Below are positions 7,626 to 39,547 of a stretch of DNA of 64,000 nucleotides, in pieces (the stretch's first letter is position 1; each line of letters starts with the position of its first letter). The notes beneath the pieces are model-generated. The model searched no databases and was not told the origin of the DNA. It saw nothing but the letters and a program-made list of their open reading frames with translations. A program made the translations under genes and the position numbers. Source of the stretch: Procambarus clarkii (Eukaryota > Arthropoda > Malacostraca > Decapoda > Cambaridae). The stretch lies in the NCBI RefSeq assembly GCF_040958095.1, contig NC_091215.1, forward strand, positions 31,994,432 through 32,058,431, written 5' to 3'.

Positions 7626-7722
7626 AATAATAATTGTACTATTATTATAATAATAATTGTACTATTATTATAATAATAATTGTACTATTATTATAATAAT
7701 AATAATTATAATAATAATTGTG
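7626..7722. repeat. 23-bp AT-rich minisatellite, ~4 units
   Basis: The unit contains TTGTACTATTATTATAATAA, largely self-complementary. Confidence 0.9.
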
Positions 7723-8350
7723 CCATTTAATATTTATCACTCTTCCTTCTGCTGGGTCATGAAGGAAGCGGGCCTCGGGTGAAAGAGGGCTGTGACGATC
7801 TCTGTCAGGAACCCGTAGGTGCGGTACCGGGACGTCCACCTCCTGGGGCTCGTGCGGCCCCCCAGGCTCTGCTTCAGGAGGCTGGGGTCGTTCTTGCCCT
7901 TGCTGGGGTGGTTCTTCTCCGGCCCCGACCACGGCGGTCTCCGGGTTTGGAGTCCCTGTGCTTTCATTCGCCAACTTCGAGGTCAACTCCGGAGTTGGAG
8001 CCCGTAGGGCAGTTCTTTGTTGCCTTCAACCTCGTTCTGACAGTTTATGCGACGCTGCCGGAACCAATCATATTGGCGTTTGTCTTTCCATTGAAGAATT
8101 TCGGCGCCGTGGGAAGGGGGGGACCTTCTGCTTGGGTAACAGCTTCTCCTCCATAACAACCTACCCAGACCGACAACTAGAGTGCAACTCCATAGTCTCC
8201 TGGGACTCATGGATGCCTACTACTAATGAGAACAATAAATTATGCAGTAACAACATTAAGGAACTATCGCGCTTGTTTGGGTGTCTCATTTGTAGCTCAG
8301 TCTCTTCCCCGCAGGTGTTTTGTGTTCGTCTCAGACGGTGACTCTTACTG
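7723..8350 (-). other. GC-rich island, possible exon remnants
   Basis: The composition changes to GC-rich, and the minus strand has two moderate frames in different phases: 7645-7986, with PPEAEPGGPHEPQEVDVPV, and 7983-8210, with KRQYDWFRQRRINCQNEVEG. I recognise neither. They could be exons of a diverged gene or chance frames. Confidence 0.2.
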
Positions 8351-13218: not shown

Positions 13219-15225
13219 CTACTCGGCAGGCGGTCCAGCTACCGATAGCAGCAGGTCTGCGATTGTCTCCATTACCATATTGGCAATTTCGTCAGCGGCA
13301 CAACTACGCCCGTTAAGGTCAGTTAAACCAAGTGTTAACTGATTAAAGAACTGATCTTTGTCGGCAATAAGTCTGACTACCGAGTCCAGGTCTCTCAGGT
13401 GAAGAGGCTTTGTTGGTTCAGAGTTGAAGTTCACCTCACTACACTTATCGAGGTCGAGGGTCTCGTGACACATTTCTATGACCAACCCTGAGACCAGACT
13501 GTCATTGTTGGCGTGACTTAGGTCTAGAGACGACACAGACCAGGATAGTTCTTCCTCAAGCGAGTGCTCAACATCCCGAGAAGAAGATTCGTCACGGACG
13601 ATAGTAGGTCCAGCGCTGACGGCAGGCGGTCCAAAACTTACGTCATCGCGGACGACGGATGGTCCAGCACTGACATCGTTGCAGACGACAGAAGTTCTAG
13701 CGCTGACGTTCTTCGTGACAGCTGGTCCTACGCTAAGGTCATCGCAGACGGCAGCTGGTCCTGCGCTAAGGTCATCGCAGACGGCAGCTGGTCCTGCGCT
13801 AAGGTCATCGCAGACGGCAGCTGGTCCTGCGCTAAGGTCGTCGCAGACGGCAGCTGGTCCTGCGCTAAGATCATCGCAGACGGCAGCTGGTCCTGCGCTA
13901 AGGTCATCGCAGACGGCAGCTGGTCCTGCGCTAAGGTCGTCGCAGACGGCAGCTGGTCCTGCGCTAAGATCATCGCAGACGGCAGCTGGTCCAATTGCCG
14001 ATAGCAGCAGGTGTGTGATTGTCTCCATTACCATATTGGCAATTTCGTCAGCGGCACAACTACGCCCGTTAAGATCAGTTAACCCAAGCGTGTGTGTTAA
14101 CTGACTACAGAACTGATCTTTGTCGGCAAGAAGTCTGACTACCGAGTCCAGATCTCTCAAGTGACCTGGACTTGAGAGATCTGGTGTTGTGGGGTCAAGG
14201 ATGAAGTTTACCGCACTACAGATGTTCATGTCGAGGCTCTCGTGACGTATTTCTATGGCCAACCCTGAGACCAGACTGTCCTTGGTGTGACGGAGGTTCA
14301 GAGACGTAACAGACCAGGGTTGTATTTCCATACACGAACGCACAACGTCAAGGGAGGGATGCTCGTCACAGTCGGCGGGTCCAGTGGCATCGTCGTCGCG
14401 GACAACAACGGGCCCAGCGCTGACATCGACGCAAGCGACATCTGGTTCAGCACTGACGTCATCGCAGACGACAGGTGGTCCAGTGCTGACGTCGTCGCAG
14501 ACGACAGGTGGTCCAGTGATGACGTCGAAGACGACAAGTGGTCCAGTGATGACGTCGTCGCAGACGACAGGTGGTCCAGCGATGACGTTGTCGCAGACTG
14601 CAGGCGGTCCAGTGCTAATGTCGTCGCAGACGGCAGGCGGTCCAGCGGTGAGAGCGTGGCGGGCTACAAGTGGTCCAGTGTTATCGCTCGTCTGGGACAG
14701 TTCTTGCCAGCTGAGGACACAGACTATGAGGGCCAGCGGCAGGTAGTCCCCGTACTCGCTTCCGGTCAATGGCCTGGCGTGGTGATCTCCAGGCCACTGT
14801 AGTGATCTAATATTATTAACCCTGTTGATGACCATCAGTACCTGAAGGAGAGTGCCTAGGACTGGCCCCCTCGTCCGGAGCATCAAGTCCCTGAGAATCC
14901 AGTCCCTGAGGATGGAGTGCCTAAGACCATCGAGGTCCAGACAGGAAAAGACCCACTCCAGCAGGAGCAAGGACACTAGCCTCCTGAAGGAGTTGGTCAG
15001 CCTCAGGAGCCCCAAAAGGTTCCACGCCTTCTGCCTGAGGATGGCCTCCTTCAAGGCGCAGGAGAAGGATGATAGTCTCTCAACGAGGTCTCGGCCCGTC
15101 AGGTGTCCCTGGAGGAGTTCCTCGACCACCCTCAGGATGACGCAGCACACCTGGAGGGTCAGCCACATTACAAGTGCCTGCTTCACTGTGTGACTGTGAT
15201 ATCCATCACGTTTTATGCTTAACAT
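13219..15225 (-). CDS. Unrecognised repeat-containing protein, 668 codons, probably host
   Basis: I do not recognise this family. The frame runs from ATG at 15223-15225 (A at -3, in-frame stop ten codons upstream) to TAG at 13219. Residues 1-180 are leucine-rich and probably helical; residues 16-35 are hydrophobic enough for a membrane anchor. Residues 193-290 hold nine or so copies of an 11-residue repeat of the form GPPVVCDDVST. Residues 291-410 form module A. Residues 411-548 hold a second array, with eight nearly identical AGPAAVCDDLS units. Residues 549-661 form module B, a copy of A sharing SLVSGL, HLRDLDSVVRL, ADKDQF and LTDLNGRSCAADEIANMVME. Units are 33 bp and all array indels are whole codons. 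In LGLTDLNGRSC...METI the two modules differ only at two silent sites. These points favour a real coding sequence. It could be one exon of a longer gene; introns were not resolved. A TATAAAG on the minus strand at 15254-15260 is a weak promoter candidate. Confidence 0.6.
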   Translation of the reverse strand: MLSIKRDGYHSHTVKQALVMWLTLQVCCVILRVVEELLQGHLTGRDLVERLSSFSCALKEAILRQKAWNLLGLLRLTNSFRRLVSLLLLEWVFSCLDLDGLRHSILRDWILRDLMLRTRGPVLGTLLQVLMVINRVNNIRSLQWPGDHHARPLTGSEYGDYLPLALIVCVLSWQELSQTSDNTGPLVARHALTAGPPAVCDDISTGPPAVCDNVIAGPPVVCDDVITGPLVVFDVITGPPVVCDDVSTGPPVVCDDVSAEPDVACVDVSAGPVVVRDDDATGPADCDEHPSLDVVRSCMEIQPWSVTSLNLRHTKDSLVSGLAIEIRHESLDMNICSAVNFILDPTTPDLSSPGHLRDLDSVVRLLADKDQFCSQLTHTLGLTDLNGRSCAADEIANMVMETITHLLLSAIGPAAVCDDLSAGPAAVCDDLSAGPAAVCDDLSAGPAAVCDDLSAGPAAVCDDLSAGPAAVCDDLSAGPAAVCDDLSAGPAAVCDDLSVGPAVTKNVSARTSVVCNDVSAGPSVVRDDVSFGPPAVSAGPTIVRDESSSRDVEHSLEEELSWSVSSLDLSHANNDSLVSGLVIEMCHETLDLDKCSEVNFNSEPTKPLHLRDLDSVVRLIADKDQFFNQLTLGLTDLNGRSCAADEIANMVMETIADLLLSVAGPPAE
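13732..13995 (-). repeat. In-frame 33-bp coding minisatellite, 8 near-identical units
   Basis: Eight units encode AGPAAVCDDLS. They differ only at a few positions, such as gtcatc versus gtcgtc, most of them silent. More diverged units of the same repeat extend to 13582 and a second array lies at 14356-14649 in the same reading frame. Confidence 0.9.
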
Positions 15226-15321
15226 GCTGTATATTGTCTCAGATCTGTTGCTTTATAATAAAACTATTTAGTATTGTATTGTATGTGTTTGCAGGTGTTG
15301 ATTACAACAACACAAACGGGG

Positions 15322-15322
<1 letters not shown>

Positions 15323-15394
<72 letters not shown>
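15323..15394. repeat. (GT)n tract
   Basis: Pure GT repeat about 100 bp upstream of the 668-codon gene. Confidence 0.95.
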
Positions 15395-26379: not shown

Positions 26380-26662
26380 ATGGTTGCTGACACGAGAAGT
26401 AAGACTTCTAAGAGACAACAACAACAAGTGACCATGGCTGGTGTACCCGGGAACCATAACGACCCCCATCCCCGCCAGGGGCCCCTGGGTGATGGTCCAC
26501 ACCCGGGGCCCTCCGGTCGGGATCCCAGCCCTGGGCCCTCCAACAGTACTGATACAGGAGACTCTACAATAGACGATGAAGGTTTCCAAGTAGTCCAAGG
26601 TAGAAGAGGCAGGAAACGGGATAAGTCACGGCGACAGGATGAGCAGCAACAGCAACCTCAGC

Positions 26663-26703
<41 letters not shown>

Positions 26704-28260
26704 CGACGACGACACGACGAAGACAGTGAGTGGCACACCCTAATCTTTCCTGCAGGGGTAATGACAGCATCAGAGAAGTTTAGATGGATTATTGAGGCCG
26801 CCCGCGCCCACAGAGGAAATTATTGTATAGAGAGCAGGTGTGTAGGTGGCAATGTTAGTGCACGGGTGCAGGGTTACAGTGCCCTGAAGTACTTCACAGA
26901 GACCAGTCTCGAGTATCTTGGTAAGAATGTCAAATTATTAGAAGCAAACCCACAGACAAGACAAACTAAAATTATAATTAAGAACTATAGCATTCATGTT
27001 GACGTGGAATATCTCAAGGACTATACCGAGATTGTTTGGGTCGAGCGCAACACCGGACCAGGGGGACTGCCCAAAAATCAAGCAATTGCTATGTGGAAGG
27101 GAGAGCTGCCCCAAGTCATTAAAATACCAGGCATGAGGGCGTGCAAAGTGGAGAGGTATATTGGCAGTCCGTCCTTGTGTGGCAACTGTCAACGGTGGGA
27201 TCACAGAACGTGGCAATGTGATCGCCCAATTAGGTGTGGGTGTTGCAGTGGCTCTCACGACACCAAGCAGTGTCTGGACAAGCTTAAACAGGGTGGGGGT
27301 AGCGGGGTAATACCTAAATGTGTCAACTGCAAGCAGGACCACCATGCCTGGAACAGATATTGCAGCAGGAGGCCTGACTGGCAGGGCTTGAGAAGGACGC
27401 CGACGCAGACGCAGACAGCAGGTGGACCAGTAAACAGGGGCGGGAATGGCTCCGTGAACAGTACCACAGCAAGCCAGGGTCCAGCCTCCAGTAGGCAGAC
27501 ACCAGCCTGGGGTAGTGGTGGAGTGACCCACCACCACCCCGCACAGGCCCAACCAGACCCCATTTCTCTCACAAACCCACTTACCTCAACCCCGCTCACT
27601 AACCCCAACCTCATCTCCCTCACTAACCCCAACCCTACCCCAACCAACAACCCCATTCCTGCCTCATCACCCATACCCCCTAACGCCTCCCAGTCAACCA
27701 GCCCTTCCGCCTCTCAGGCGACCCTCCCTTTCCCCCACCCTACCACTCCCCCGCCTCACTCACCAGTCAACACCTCACTGGGTCCAGATAAAACAATGCC
27801 GCCCGGTATGGAAGCAATGATTACCCACATGATAAAAAATCACCCACTCATGCAAGAACTAATAAGCAAGCAAAATAAACTTGAGAATACCCTATGTACA
27901 ATCCAGAAGACCCAGGAGGACATACTTCACATTCTGCAGGGCCTGAAGTTGCCTCAGGCGAGTTCAGCAGGTTGCAACTTGGTGCATGGGGATGCAACAC
28001 GAGCCACGGCACATAACAGCAGACTCAGTGCTACCCAAGTGAACTCAGTGCGACCCAGTGAACACACCACCACCAGTGAACACAACAGCACCACCAGTGA
28101 ACACAACACCACCAGTGAACACAACACCACCAACAGCACCACCAGTGAACGCAACACCACCAGTGAAGACAACAGCACCACCAGTGAACACAACGACACT
28201 AGTGTACACAACACCACTGACCACTGGCACTGGCATACAAACAGTACCACCAGCACATGA
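26380..28260 (+). CDS. LINE ORF1, Gag-like nucleic-acid-binding protein
   Basis: The 626-codon frame encodes the RNA-binding ORF1 protein that coats LINE RNA. Residues 1-88 are low complexity and charged. Residues 89-108 are almost all glutamine, coded by a CAA-rich tract. Residues ~115-225 form the conserved globular part typical of I-group ORF1. Residues 267-328 carry three zinc knuckles, CX2CX4HX4C, CX2CX3HX4C and CX2CX3HX6C, the usual arthropod LINE order. The C-terminal third is rich in proline, serine and threonine and ends in a degenerate repeat around SEHNTT. Translation may start at 26380 or, in a better context (ACCATGG), at 26434, residue 19. The frame is unbroken. ORF2 follows in another frame. 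Confidence 0.85.
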
Positions 28261-28330
28261 CGGTGGTGCAACACCACATACAACACCACCAGTGAACACA
28301 CTCTCACCAGCAACAACACCACACACAGTA
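28060..28330 (+). repeat. Degenerate ACC-rich minisatellite across the ORF1/ORF2 junction
   Basis: Loose repeats of ACCACCAGTGAACACAAC are read as SEHNTT in ORF1 and PPVNTT in the frame leading to ORF2. The array has few stops in either frame, so both frames stay open across the overlap. Confidence 0.75.
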
Positions 28331-28354
28331 CATCTGATGACCAACACCTCCACA

Positions 28355-31300
28355 ATGGATAACCACGCTGAAGAAAGTCTCACTATCCTACAATGGAACT
28401 GCAATGGCGTTCGCAATAGAATTAATGACATCATACAATACGCTCGTGAACACCAAACTGACGTCATAGTGCTACAGGAGACAATGGTAGGTGATGACTT
28501 CAACCCAAGGTTCAGCGGTTATCGCAAGTTCTCCCTGCCACATGGGGAAAGAAAACGGGGTCTCATCACTTATGTAAATAACAACATTCCCGCACAGATT
28601 ATTGATGACCTGCAAATGGGGGATGAGTTTGAATCACTGGGAGTAACCCTTTACTTAAACAATAATGCTCTACATATAATCAACCTATATGTGCCACAGA
28701 GTAAACTTGACCTTGACGCACTGCCTGAGTTTGTTAATGAAGAACCTACCCTGCTGGTTGGTGACCTGAATGCCAGACACCCACACTTTGGTGCCAACTG
28801 TCATCAGCCCAATGTCAATGGACGGAAACTGTCACTCTTTGTCAGGGGAAGTGAAAACCTTAGGGTCCTGGGTGATGAACAGCCAACTCACCTCAGAGGA
28901 GGAAGATTAGATTATGCTCTCCTGCTGAATGCACAGGACACGGATGCCAGTACACACATTGTGCACAGTTTATGTAGTGACCATTGGGCACTGATTACCA
29001 CCGTCGACATGAGCAAGAGAAGGAAAGAGACAAATAAAAGAAAAAGGTTATCACTCGGACCAGATATGAGGCCGCACTTCATAAACAGGATGAGTGACTG
29101 GTTCACGGAATACCAAATCCCAGAAGACATTAACACATTTGTTGATGACCTTAACCACCAAATTGAGAGCTGTCTAAGAGTTCCGCGCCGTACGCCTGGG
29201 CGAAGTAACCCTCAGAGGAAGAAAATAAAATGGTATGAGAATGATTACATAAAGATGCTTAACGCAAATGTGCGAGACATGAGTAGAGAGTACCGGAGAC
29301 ATCCCACTGAAAGTAACCAAGAGTTGTTTAAGACAGTGTGTCAAGTAGCCAGGGAAGAGAAGATTAAAGAGCGGGAAAGACAATGGCTTGAGTTCACTAG
29401 CTCTATTGGACGGGAAACATCTGCAAGACAAGTGTGGGCAAAAATTCAGATAGCTAAGGGGGGCAGAGCCCGGCCTGCGGCTCACAAAGACCCCCAGGGT
29501 AAGGCTGAGGAACTAATTCACAAGTGGAGTGATGCAGCATCCTCCTCCTCCCTCCCTGCAGAAATCAGCAGGGAACAGCTCCTGCGACATGATGACAGAA
29601 GAATTAGGATAACAAGAGCACTGTCTAGTGATGACGAGTATGGGGAACCAATCACAGCCCAAGAAGTAAGGGGCGCTATGAAAAAGGGTAAAAGTACAGC
29701 ACCTGGTGAAGATGGCGTCACCTACGACATACTCAATGCACTGTGTGCAGTGTCTGGGAATCCACTACTCCACCTGTTTAACAAGTCATTCCTAAGTGGA
29801 GTGTTGCCCACACAATGGAAACACGCAATAATTATTCCCATACCGAAGCCTAATGACCCTGGTAATTACAGACCTATCAGCCTCGTGTCATGCACTTGCA
29901 AGATGCTTGAAAGGATCATCCTAAACCGACTGTTGCACAAAATAGGCAGGTTAGGGGAGGGGGTCAATGGATTTGTTAAAGGACGGAGCACAGCAAATTG
30001 TATAGTTAATTACTTGGTTAATGACACGGCTAGGTACTCTGTATTTGTTGACATCAAAGGAGCCTTCGACAAAGCACAGGGGATTGCGATCCTGGACGAG
30101 CTTGCATGCATGGGTGTCAAGGGGAGACTCATGAAATGGGTTGAAGACTACCTCACAGGAAGGGAAGCCAAGGTTTGCTTCAATGGAGCAGTCTCCAGAA
30201 CAATGAGTATGGAACTCGGGACCCCCCAAGGCGGAGTCTTAAGCCCTACACTATTCAATGTACTTATGAACGCCATTGCAAATATTGATTTTCCGGAAGG
30301 AACACAACAAGTGGGATATGCAGATGATGTCCTAATACAAGCTCCCACCTTGGGAAAAATTGAACAGTCCATTGAACTCCTCGGAAGGAAATGTATTGAG
30401 CTCGGTTTCACTCTCTCCACAAACAAGACGAAGGCATACTCCCATCACAAGCGGAGAGCAAATGAAGAACTGCAAATTAATGGTGTAACACTTGAATGGG
30501 TTGACCACTACCGGTACCTTGGCGTCACTGTCGGCTCTAACAAGGGAAAGAAAGAGGAGCTCAATCAACTCATAGGAACATGCAAAAGTCGACTCAAGGC
30601 ACTGAAAGCTATGACCTGGAATGGACATGGAGCCTCAATTGCCGTGCTCAAAATGATGTACACAGCCTATGTGCGCTCCGTCATAGACTATGCCGCACCA
30701 GTACTGTGCACCTACTCCCAAACCGATATGAAAAGGCTTGAAAGCATTCAAAATGAAGCCATGACAATCATTCTTGGAGTCCCAAGAACTGCCAAAACGT
30801 CTAATCTACGAGAGGAGTTGTCCCTTCCCAGTATTAAAAACAGAATTCAGGAGCTGAATGCTAAGCTTGCAATTAGGATAGCCAGAGATCCCCATTACAA
30901 TGATATTGCCAAGAAAAAACTGAGCTCTGTGCTACTTTCAGGGGGAAACAGGAGAAGCAAAAAATGGCATCACAGAGCAGTCTGCTACCTTGAAGAGCTT
31001 CACCTGCTTGAGCAAGCCCGTGAGCTCCTGCCTGTAGAGAGGTTACCTCCCTGGGAGGATGACTCATGCAAGATCATCATCAATGAAATGGCAATGAAAA
31101 AATCCAACATGATACCACAAGAAATGAGGCACAAGTATCTCGAGGACATTTATAAAGAAGCCGGAGATGAACTAGATCAAATCTACACTGACGGGTCATC
31201 TAATCCTATCAATGGCAGGGCTGGTGCAGCATACACGGTAATCAAGGATAATACCTTCCAACGCAGAAATGAAGAAAAAGCACGTATTGAGAACTATGCC

Positions 31301-32031
31301 TCTTCAACGCAAGCAGAGCTAACTGCCATTGTTATGGCGTTAAGGTTTCTTGAACGGAACACTAATGGTGCAGTGATTTGCACCGATTCAAAAGCAGCAC
31401 TGCAAAGCCTAAGTAAAAATCAGGCAGAAAATCTTGCAATAGTCGCTGAATCAAGAGAGCTGTGAGAGTACTTACCAATCAGGGAAGAGTCATCAAGTTT
31501 CTGTGGATCCCCTCCCATGTTGGAATATGTGGGAATGAACGAGCAGATGTGCTGGCTGCTGAAGGCGCTGAAGGAGACCATATTGAATACTTCATACCCA
31601 AGACTCAACTACAAATTAGAGGTATTATCAGGCAACATCACCGTGACAAGGTAACTGAGGAAAGGAGGATAGAAGCACAAACCAGTGAATCTGTACGATG
31701 GTACAACATGGTTGCAGCTGGCAATCCCAATCAGTATGGCCGAAGAGGAGGACGACGAGTGAGAGAATCTGTAATAGCGAGAATCCGTCTTGGATACAAA
31801 TATCCATGGAGATTTGGAATGGAAACAACAGTTGATCAGCGAAGTTGCAGAATCTGTGGTGAGAGTGATGGACACCGCCTTGACCACTATTTACGTGAAT
31901 GTGAACACCTGAGAGACATTAGGAATAACTGTAGAATAATAAACCCCACATTGTTTGAGTTAGGAAAACACTATTTGTCAAATATTGATACTGTTCTTAA
32001 AAGATTTCCCCATTTTGCACCCGCAAGATAA
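28355..32031 (+). pseudogene. LINE ORF2: endonuclease, reverse transcriptase, RNase H (one frameshift)
   Basis: This is the enzyme for target-primed reverse transcription. Counting from ATG 28355 (alternative ATG 28337), residues 9-235 are an APE-like endonuclease with WNCNG, QET, NLYVP, GDLNARH and SDHWA (208-212). The reverse transcriptase spans about residues 440-760, with FVDIKGAFD around D566, GTPQGGVLSP and the catalytic YADD at 655-658. RNase H begins near residue 943, with YTDGSS (D946), the glutamate in AELTAI and D1011 in TDSKAAL. At about 31460-31463 the frame shifts by one base: the upstream frame stops at 31463-31465, and the last RNase H motif (SHVGICGNERADVLA) plus a CX2CX9HX4C zinc motif (from 31846) lie in the next frame to 32031. 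The open frame also extends upstream to 28058 without an ATG, overlapping the end of ORF1. The whole would be about 1,226 residues, normal for the group. Confidence 0.85.
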
Positions 32032-39050: not shown

Positions 39051-39231
39051 CACCTGCCTCCGGAGGCAACAGTCAAAATGATGGGGAGAAGGAAGGTTGA
39101 AGAGGGAGAGAGGGGAGGGAGGAAGAGGTGTTTGGTGAGGGAACGTGGGAAGAAGTTGTTGGTAAAGATAGAGAATATGAATCAAAGCAAGGGATTGGGA
39201 TGGAATTAGGAAGTAGAAAGATGTAGGCAAG

Positions 39232-39547
39232 AGGTGGAGGGATGGGGTTTAGAGAGAACACAAGGGGTGGAGGGATGGGGTTTAGAGAGAACACAAGGGG
39301 TGGAGGGATGGGGTTTAGAGAGAACACAAGGGGTGGAGGGATGGGGTTTAGAGAGAACACAAGGGGTGGAGGGATGGGGTTTAGAGAGAACACAAGGGGT
39401 GGAGGGATGGGGTTTAGAGAGAACACAAGGGGTGGAGGGATGGGGTTTAGAGAGAACACAAGGGGTGGAGGGATGGGGTTTAGAGAGAACACAAGGGGTG
39501 GAGGGATGGGGTTTAGAGAGAACACAAGGGGTGGAGGGATGGGGTTC
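39232..39547. repeat. 32-bp minisatellite, ~10 units
   Basis: The unit contains GGTGGAGGGATGGGGTTTAG and AGAGAACACAAG. Units are almost identical, so recent. Confidence 0.95.

Follow-up and report, generated by a model that had tools for sequence, protein, structure and literature searches.

The locus described here lies in a 64,000-nucleotide stretch of DNA from the crayfish Procambarus clarkii (the window, C66:31994432-32058431), part of a genome of 4,027,284,227 bases in 2308 contigs, which are cited below by C number; for this species, PMC12842422 gives a 4.03 Gb chromosome-level assembly and 2n = 188. On the minus strand, one frame is open from 15252 to 13219, stop to stop, with its first Met at 15225. 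An earlier note, made from the letters of the window, had reported a 668-codon frame with two arrays and two modules at this place, and it is found as claimed; the whole-codon insertions and deletions that the note described, a 10-residue unit (GPLVVFDVIT) and a 4-residue loss (GPPAVSA), are both visible in the translation. In the genome, the frame matches itself at C66:32007653-32009656 (100%), where the open frame is 677 aa long. The earlier note lacked a third part: residues 1-185 make up a conserved N-terminal domain (N-domain). The features, in window coordinates, are:

13219-15225, minus strand: whole coding frame, 668 codons plus stop, one open frame
14671-15225, minus strand: N-domain, residues 1-185 (alignment to the C22, C66 and C32 paralogues; genome matches; hydropathy)
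15124-15180, minus strand: first hydrophobic segment, residues 16-34 (mean Kyte-Doolittle 1.91)
14320-14670, minus strand: array 1, diverged 11-residue units, one of 10; a non-repeat junction precedes module A (translation and repeat detection)
13987-14319, minus strand: module A (paralogue alignment; genome matches)
13546-13986, minus strand: array 2, GPAAVCDDLSA 11-residue units, then diverged units and a junction, followed by module B (translation and repeat detection)
13231-13545, minus strand: module B, 75% identical to A (paralogue alignment)
15226-15330, minus strand: 5' flank resembling the C22 and C66a flanks (shuffle-tested alignment)
7744-7958, plus strand: dead N-domain fragment (aa 53-127 of the C66 copy) within a dispersed repeat at about 7647-8225, outside the gene (genome search)

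Elsewhere in the window (26380-32031, plus strand) lies a LINE-like element with endonuclease, reverse transcriptase and RNase H domains, ahead of which stands a 626-aa frame that matches nothing in Pfam.

In the N-domain, the hydrophobic segment is followed by a region aligned to the LPxxG/VPxxGTL motif of the relatives. Hydropathy places a hydrophobic segment near the N-terminus in six of eight N-domains with a full N-terminus, and another past the motif region in seven of nine tested; at the threshold used, the window and C22 copies are without the second segment, and C3 and C9 without the first. Each trimmed to its first Met, a step that makes the alignment at column 1 partly one of construction, the N-domains align throughout their length. 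Their hydropathy suggests that they are probably membrane-anchoring. AlphaFold models, built from window sequences only, are too poor to reveal a fold (pLDDT 46 and 53).

Does this protein belong to anything already described? The earlier note had raised the possibility of an undescribed family, and database searches agree. In Pfam, nothing above chance matches the window protein, the window-type N-domains, the modules or the diverged N-domains introduced below; in the PDB, the best row for the window protein stands at 0.9 and that for the module profile at 0.92, and the window-type N-domain profile has none, leaving no credible match. Chance-level rows were set aside, both in Pfam (DUF6771, E 0.2; CMV_UL148C, 0.46; PTPLA, 0.054; S1FA, 0.28; La, 0.22; OAS1_C, 0.064; PreAtp-grasp, 0.12; RasGEF_N_2, 0.054) and in the PDB (interferon gamma and KRIT1, with the module profile). 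A profile of the diverged N-domain (A5) drew 26 rows of all kinds in hmmsearch (best E 3.9e-7, over 37 columns), and a likeness to algal light-harvesting polyproteins (PDB 9vfj) was rejected as spurious: a short Trp/Pro-rich stretch is summed there over the repeats of chloroplast proteins. Among IMG/VR viral contigs, no relative of window module A or of the C102 N-domain was found by scans that reach close relatives only, and the literature searched, at abstract level and with subscription papers mostly outside, holds no description of this family.

Relatives were found in the same genome; the queries from the window were the full-length protein, the N-domain and module A, later joined by N-domains from C32 and C66 and a module from C32. 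The search scores only the best candidates, so all paralogue counts are lower bounds; with module A, 13 of the 22 candidates scored are matches. Besides the window gene, seven or more intact paralogues of 860-2514 aa, each in a single frame, run in the order N-domain, array, module:

C22: one intact paralogue, 1172 aa, two modules
C66, at 20.36, 20.70 and 21.28 Mb: intact paralogues of 2514, 1000 and 1343 aa
C32, at 12.80, 14.12 and 14.50 Mb: intact paralogues of 860, 890 and 890 aa
C66 at 20.613 Mb, C66 at 32.168 Mb, C64 at 0.92 Mb: broken or partial copies

The window gene, too, has the N-domain first, a whole-codon array in frame and a module after the array; this order, with a module of about 105 residues, is present in eight intact frames of one genome. 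The earlier note had counted a lack of homologues against its reading; within this genome, to which the search was confined, paralogues exist. There are not many genes of the window type, and most of them form clusters on C66 and C32. Those on C66 and C32 have a single module each, which on C66 is followed by a second array, and a relative on C3 (20.46 Mb) joins an N-domain to an array of 8- and 10-residue units, without a module.

A more distant branch came to light because the C32 module query also matched six stretches on C9 (E 0.003) and one on C38 (E 0.02). The C9 frame, 1079 aa long, has a hydrophobic start, the motif SLPVVG..WTWVPIVGS, a hydrophobic region, an array of 11-residue units (SDPGNVDASLE) and the module last; a 604-aa frame on C83 has the N-domain first, the module last and a short Arg-rich SPRRAP repeat in between. 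Judged by its translated frames, this diverged branch keeps the same order of parts. Used in turn as a query, the C9 module recovers the C66, C22 and C32 modules at E 1e-5 to 3e-3, and profile comparison by hhalign joins the diverged and window-type forms of both the N-domain (94.7%, E 5.9e-8, score 54) and the module (96.5%, E 9e-10, score 56); column-shuffled profiles (50 each) peak at 14.5 and 17.5, reversed ones give 11.5 and 11.0, and N-domain versus module cross controls stay below 13. The C9 N-domain matched 81 of 112 scored stretches (E up to 0.1), 79 of them stop-free, but several of these rows are pieces of single loci, so the loci are fewer than the rows. Many sit in frames of 700-1900 aa and one in a frame of 4779 aa; sequence was read for C9, C83 and C39 and for short pieces on C102 and C73, the C102 piece consisting of the motif, a hydrophobic segment and an array of 8-residue units (GVQDDDTA). 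Window-type N-domains are absent from the 81 rows, and the tie between the branches is made by the profile comparison and by the modules of C9 and C83. On C68, six N-domain matches (E 2.5e-4 to 0.04) are spread over 17.29-17.38 Mb, one of them within the 4779-aa open frame.

In one relative, the part after the N-domain is of another kind. A 427-aa frame on C70 (18.448 Mb; L044:1974-3257, minus strand) ends in a tail, in place of array and module, that resembles an Ulp1-like cysteine protease: it matches Pfam Peptidase_C48/Ulp1 (PF02902) at E 0.027, below the Pfam cut-off, and has HW, YDS and SCG in order, as in the Peptidase_C48/Ulp1 motif. With the tail as a query, 417 candidates gave 150 scored matches, of which 21 (itself included) have E < 0.001 and the others are weak. 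Since neither C3 nor C70 has a module, the module is not a constant of the wider family; nor is the acidity of the array, because the C83 repeat is Arg-rich.

Is the protein what selection sees? A script written for the purpose estimated pairwise omega by maximum likelihood (F3x4). For modules compared across the four subfamilies, omega is 0.15-0.45, and omega = 1 is rejected in each of the 37 pairs (2dlnL 8.6-31.9); for N-domains it is rejected in 17 of 22. These tests overlap in sequences and are not mutually independent. Over the trees, omega is 0.38 for the module (2dlnL 43.9) and 0.51 for the N-domain (2dlnL 25.7), both rejecting 1; module and N-domain are under purifying selection across the family. 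On the window branch alone, omega rises to 0.70 (module) and 0.77 (N-domain), neither distinguishable from 1, and in the module tree the window differs from the rest (0.70 versus 0.29, 2dlnL 5.8); for the N-domain this contrast is not significant (2dlnL 1.3). The selection on protein proposed in the earlier note thus stands for the family, in modules and N-domains alike, but the window lineage by itself is not separable from neutral. Yet the window frame has stayed open. When neutral change was simulated at one substitution per codon, the age of the window lineage as estimated from dS, stops were absent from the C66a N-domain in about 2% of runs and from one module in about 8%. Because an open frame is this improbable under simulated neutrality, constraint would have lasted for most of the window lineage; a recent relaxation is possible.

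In the LGLTDLNGRSC...METI block of the two modules within the window gene, A and B differ by two silent and no replacement changes over 23 codons (alignment columns 79-101), as had been noted earlier, but the dN/dS test between the two modules that the note proposed gave 0.82, not significantly different from 1. Synonymous divergence (dS) is 0.19 between the window modules and 0.03 between the two C22 modules, compared with 0.80-0.87 between window and C22 modules; these low values within genes imply that the two-module form arose, or was homogenized, separately in the window gene and in C22. The composite duplication is local to the window gene; C22 has a module pair of its own. Codons that differ between A and B number 24 of 46 in the first half and 14 of 58 in the second (Fisher p 0.004), and the lower divergence in the second half would fit partial gene conversion.

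As to the arrays, the earlier note held that nearly every other minisatellite in the window ignores codon phase. This proved incorrect: among window arrays with a period of at least 10, 18 of 47 others have periods divisible by 3, and among those with at least five copies 4 of 17 do, including another 33-bp array at 39228-39546. With this share close to the one third expected by chance, the argument from codon phase is weak. In the gene itself, the 33-bp unit recurs 8.3 times at 13719-13992 (96% match) and 8.0 times at 14391-14651 (78% match; also detected as 66-bp units up to 14680), and unit length varies by branch: 11 residues in the window gene, 8 and 11 in C22, 7 and 11 in C66, 10 in C32. 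Inside frames, none of 295 steps between anchored units breaks codon phase, a count that partly restates the open frames; it takes in only exact V-x-[DE]-D anchors and steps of up to 60 bp, excluding most of the C66a array (18 steps there). Its informative part is the contrast with array sequence beyond a stop. In C66b and C66c, where the frame ends by a frame shift within the last array and the same array continues past the stop codon, 5 of 44 steps beyond the stop are not multiples of 3, against 0 of 56 in frame (one-sided exact p 0.014). Twelve 11-residue units of the window gene give an omega of 0.39 in frame, as against 0.99 and 2.35 when read in the two remaining frames; the main C66a array gives 0.42, while several others give 0.7-1.0 or are without silent changes. 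The signal of selection within arrays varies from gene to gene and is not the main evidence. Across the eight intact frames, in which the arrays are Asp-rich, net charge ranges from -54 to -609. Further 33-bp arrays in the genome (C30:32.57-32.58 Mb and others) read GPSVVCDDTTL or GPLCDDVSVRP, resembling the unit of the gene, with no module match and with breaks in some frames; such array-only matches (C30, C69, C49, C20, C67 and others) were set aside, no module match lying on those contigs and several frames being broken.

Where does the coding sequence begin? In the four subfamilies, the first Met has an in-frame stop 18 to 60 bases on its 5' side; in C22 this stop is the TAG of an acceptor-like site, so an upstream coding exon is possible there. 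The 105 bases before the Met are alike in the window gene, C22 and C66a: of 1000 shuffles, one matches the score for window and C22, one for window and C66a, and none for the remaining pair. The C32a flank is unlike those of C22 and C66a, with scores equalled in 692 and 528 of 1000 shuffles; its score with the window flank is equalled in none of 1000, and CA repeats may account for it. C22 and C66a have in common a pyrimidine tract ending in CTCTAG, where the window has GTTGTAA (about 15302-15303). By inference, CTCTAG is an acceptor site that follows a 5' untranslated exon, a site that the window copy may have lost.

These observations are best accommodated, with a probability of roughly 55%, if the window frame is a member, under relaxed constraint, of a multigene family of single-open-frame genes whose products would each form a membrane-tethered acidic brush holding a binding module. 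In the mechanism proposed, hydrophobic helices flanking the motif region, with its two LPxxG/VPxxG-like turns, would anchor the protein in a membrane; the array would serve as a disordered, usually acidic spacer, free to vary in length by gain and loss of units; and the module would be the specific binding part. On which side of the membrane would the spacer lie? Ulp1-like proteases act in the cytosol or nucleus, and the C70 tail takes the place of array and module, so these parts probably face the cytosol, a topology drawn from one relative whose protease match lies below the Pfam cut-off.

How far do other explanations go? That the frame is a pair of non-coding minisatellites open by accident might be suggested by array composition, which leaves several frames open, and by a window full of minisatellites; it is refuted at the level of the family, where the non-repetitive N-domain and the modules are conserved as protein among paralogues with omega below 1, and for the window frame it is exceedingly improbable. 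Another rival treats the window copy as an incipient pseudogene: the family would be real, but this member, its frame still kept, would have lost its splice acceptor and its constraint. The window-branch omega for the module, raised above that of the rest and not below 1, the ratio of 0.82 between modules A and B, the change of the acceptor-like TAG to TAA, and the existence of broken or partial family copies (C66 at 32.168 and 20.613 Mb, C64) all point this way. Against it stand 668 codons without stop or frameshift, the neutral simulations, which seldom leave an N-domain or a module open, and the low omega of the window array units in their own frame as opposed to the other two; such decay is a real possibility, at somewhat worse than even odds.

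Two further alternatives concern the family as a whole. Its proteins could be the products of a mobile element, active or domesticated, with the few window-type genes as survivors. Part of the N-domain does occur in a dispersed repeat. Queried with the C66 N-domain, 150 scored stretches match of 1698 candidates, mostly over aa 47-149 of the query, and 482 bases of the window repeat (7744-8225) match at 40 of 40 scored places, of 4431 candidates, at 82-100%. C102-type N-domains occupy 40 places at 90% identity or more on 24 contigs (11 places on C102), in open frames of 159-1880 aa, a branch that seems recently spread or amplified; the many weaker matches of the C70 protease tail across the genome, beyond its 21 stronger rows, can be counted on the same side. 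However, 139 of the 150 C66 N-domain matches contain stops, so that what the repeat has is a dead fragment, not the source gene. This fragment is nearest to the C66 type, and because protein-level conservation of the N-domain extends to far more distant genes, the repeat is read as having captured the domain rather than the reverse. Pfam scans of four whole frames (window, C3, C39 and C70; other paralogues were scanned as N-domain or module only) show no transposase, integrase or reverse transcriptase, and the scarcity and clustering of window-type genes also speak against a mobile origin, which is judged unlikely. Membership in a known transposon, which the earlier note had listed as evidence against its reading, is not established, but the repeat does hold a dead piece of the N-domain and the C102 type looks dispersed. 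Alternatively, the proteins might be secreted into the mineral matrix of cuticle or gastrolith, with the array extracellular. Crayfish store calcium, the Asp-rich arrays carry extreme negative charge, and most N-domains start with a signal-like segment (6 of 8); on the other side, 7 of 9 have the further hydrophobic segment past the motif region, and C70 has its Ulp1-like tail there. This function appears even less probable than a mobile origin.

If the family is expressed, it would be a large protein family with two domains undescribed in the libraries searched, located in sequence that repeat masking would probably discard. In this minisatellite-rich genome, some minisatellites lie within long selected genes, and related ends joined by arrays of 7, 8, 10 or 11 residues offer a natural set-up for telling constraint on sequence from constraint on length and charge in repeat proteins. 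As a speculation that goes well beyond the main reading and is unlikely, several dozen membrane-anchored, length-variable repeat proteins could form a crayfish superfamily, a hypervariable modular system of the surface or endomembranes, with new arrays arising in every branch around the two constant domains, modules being duplicated, a protease swapped into one branch and another branch dispersing through the genome. Such a system may be opposed to viruses or mobile elements, and would parallel the variable multigene families already known.

Comparison with known systems yields partial likenesses. Crustaceans have acidic calcification proteins such as GAMP and crustocalcin, which by description share an acidic, repetitive character with the family described here but differ from it in that this family has a further hydrophobic segment. 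The C70 tail resembles Peptidase_C48/Ulp1, whereas the window gene and those array-bearing relatives whose sequence was read have no such tail, and the Pfam scan found no Peptidase_C48 domain in the window protein. The Sp185/333 (SpTransformer) genes of sea urchins, small two-exon genes according to the abstract of PMC5491942, are likewise a clustered multigene family with internal repeats, a likeness drawn from their description rather than from sequence comparison.
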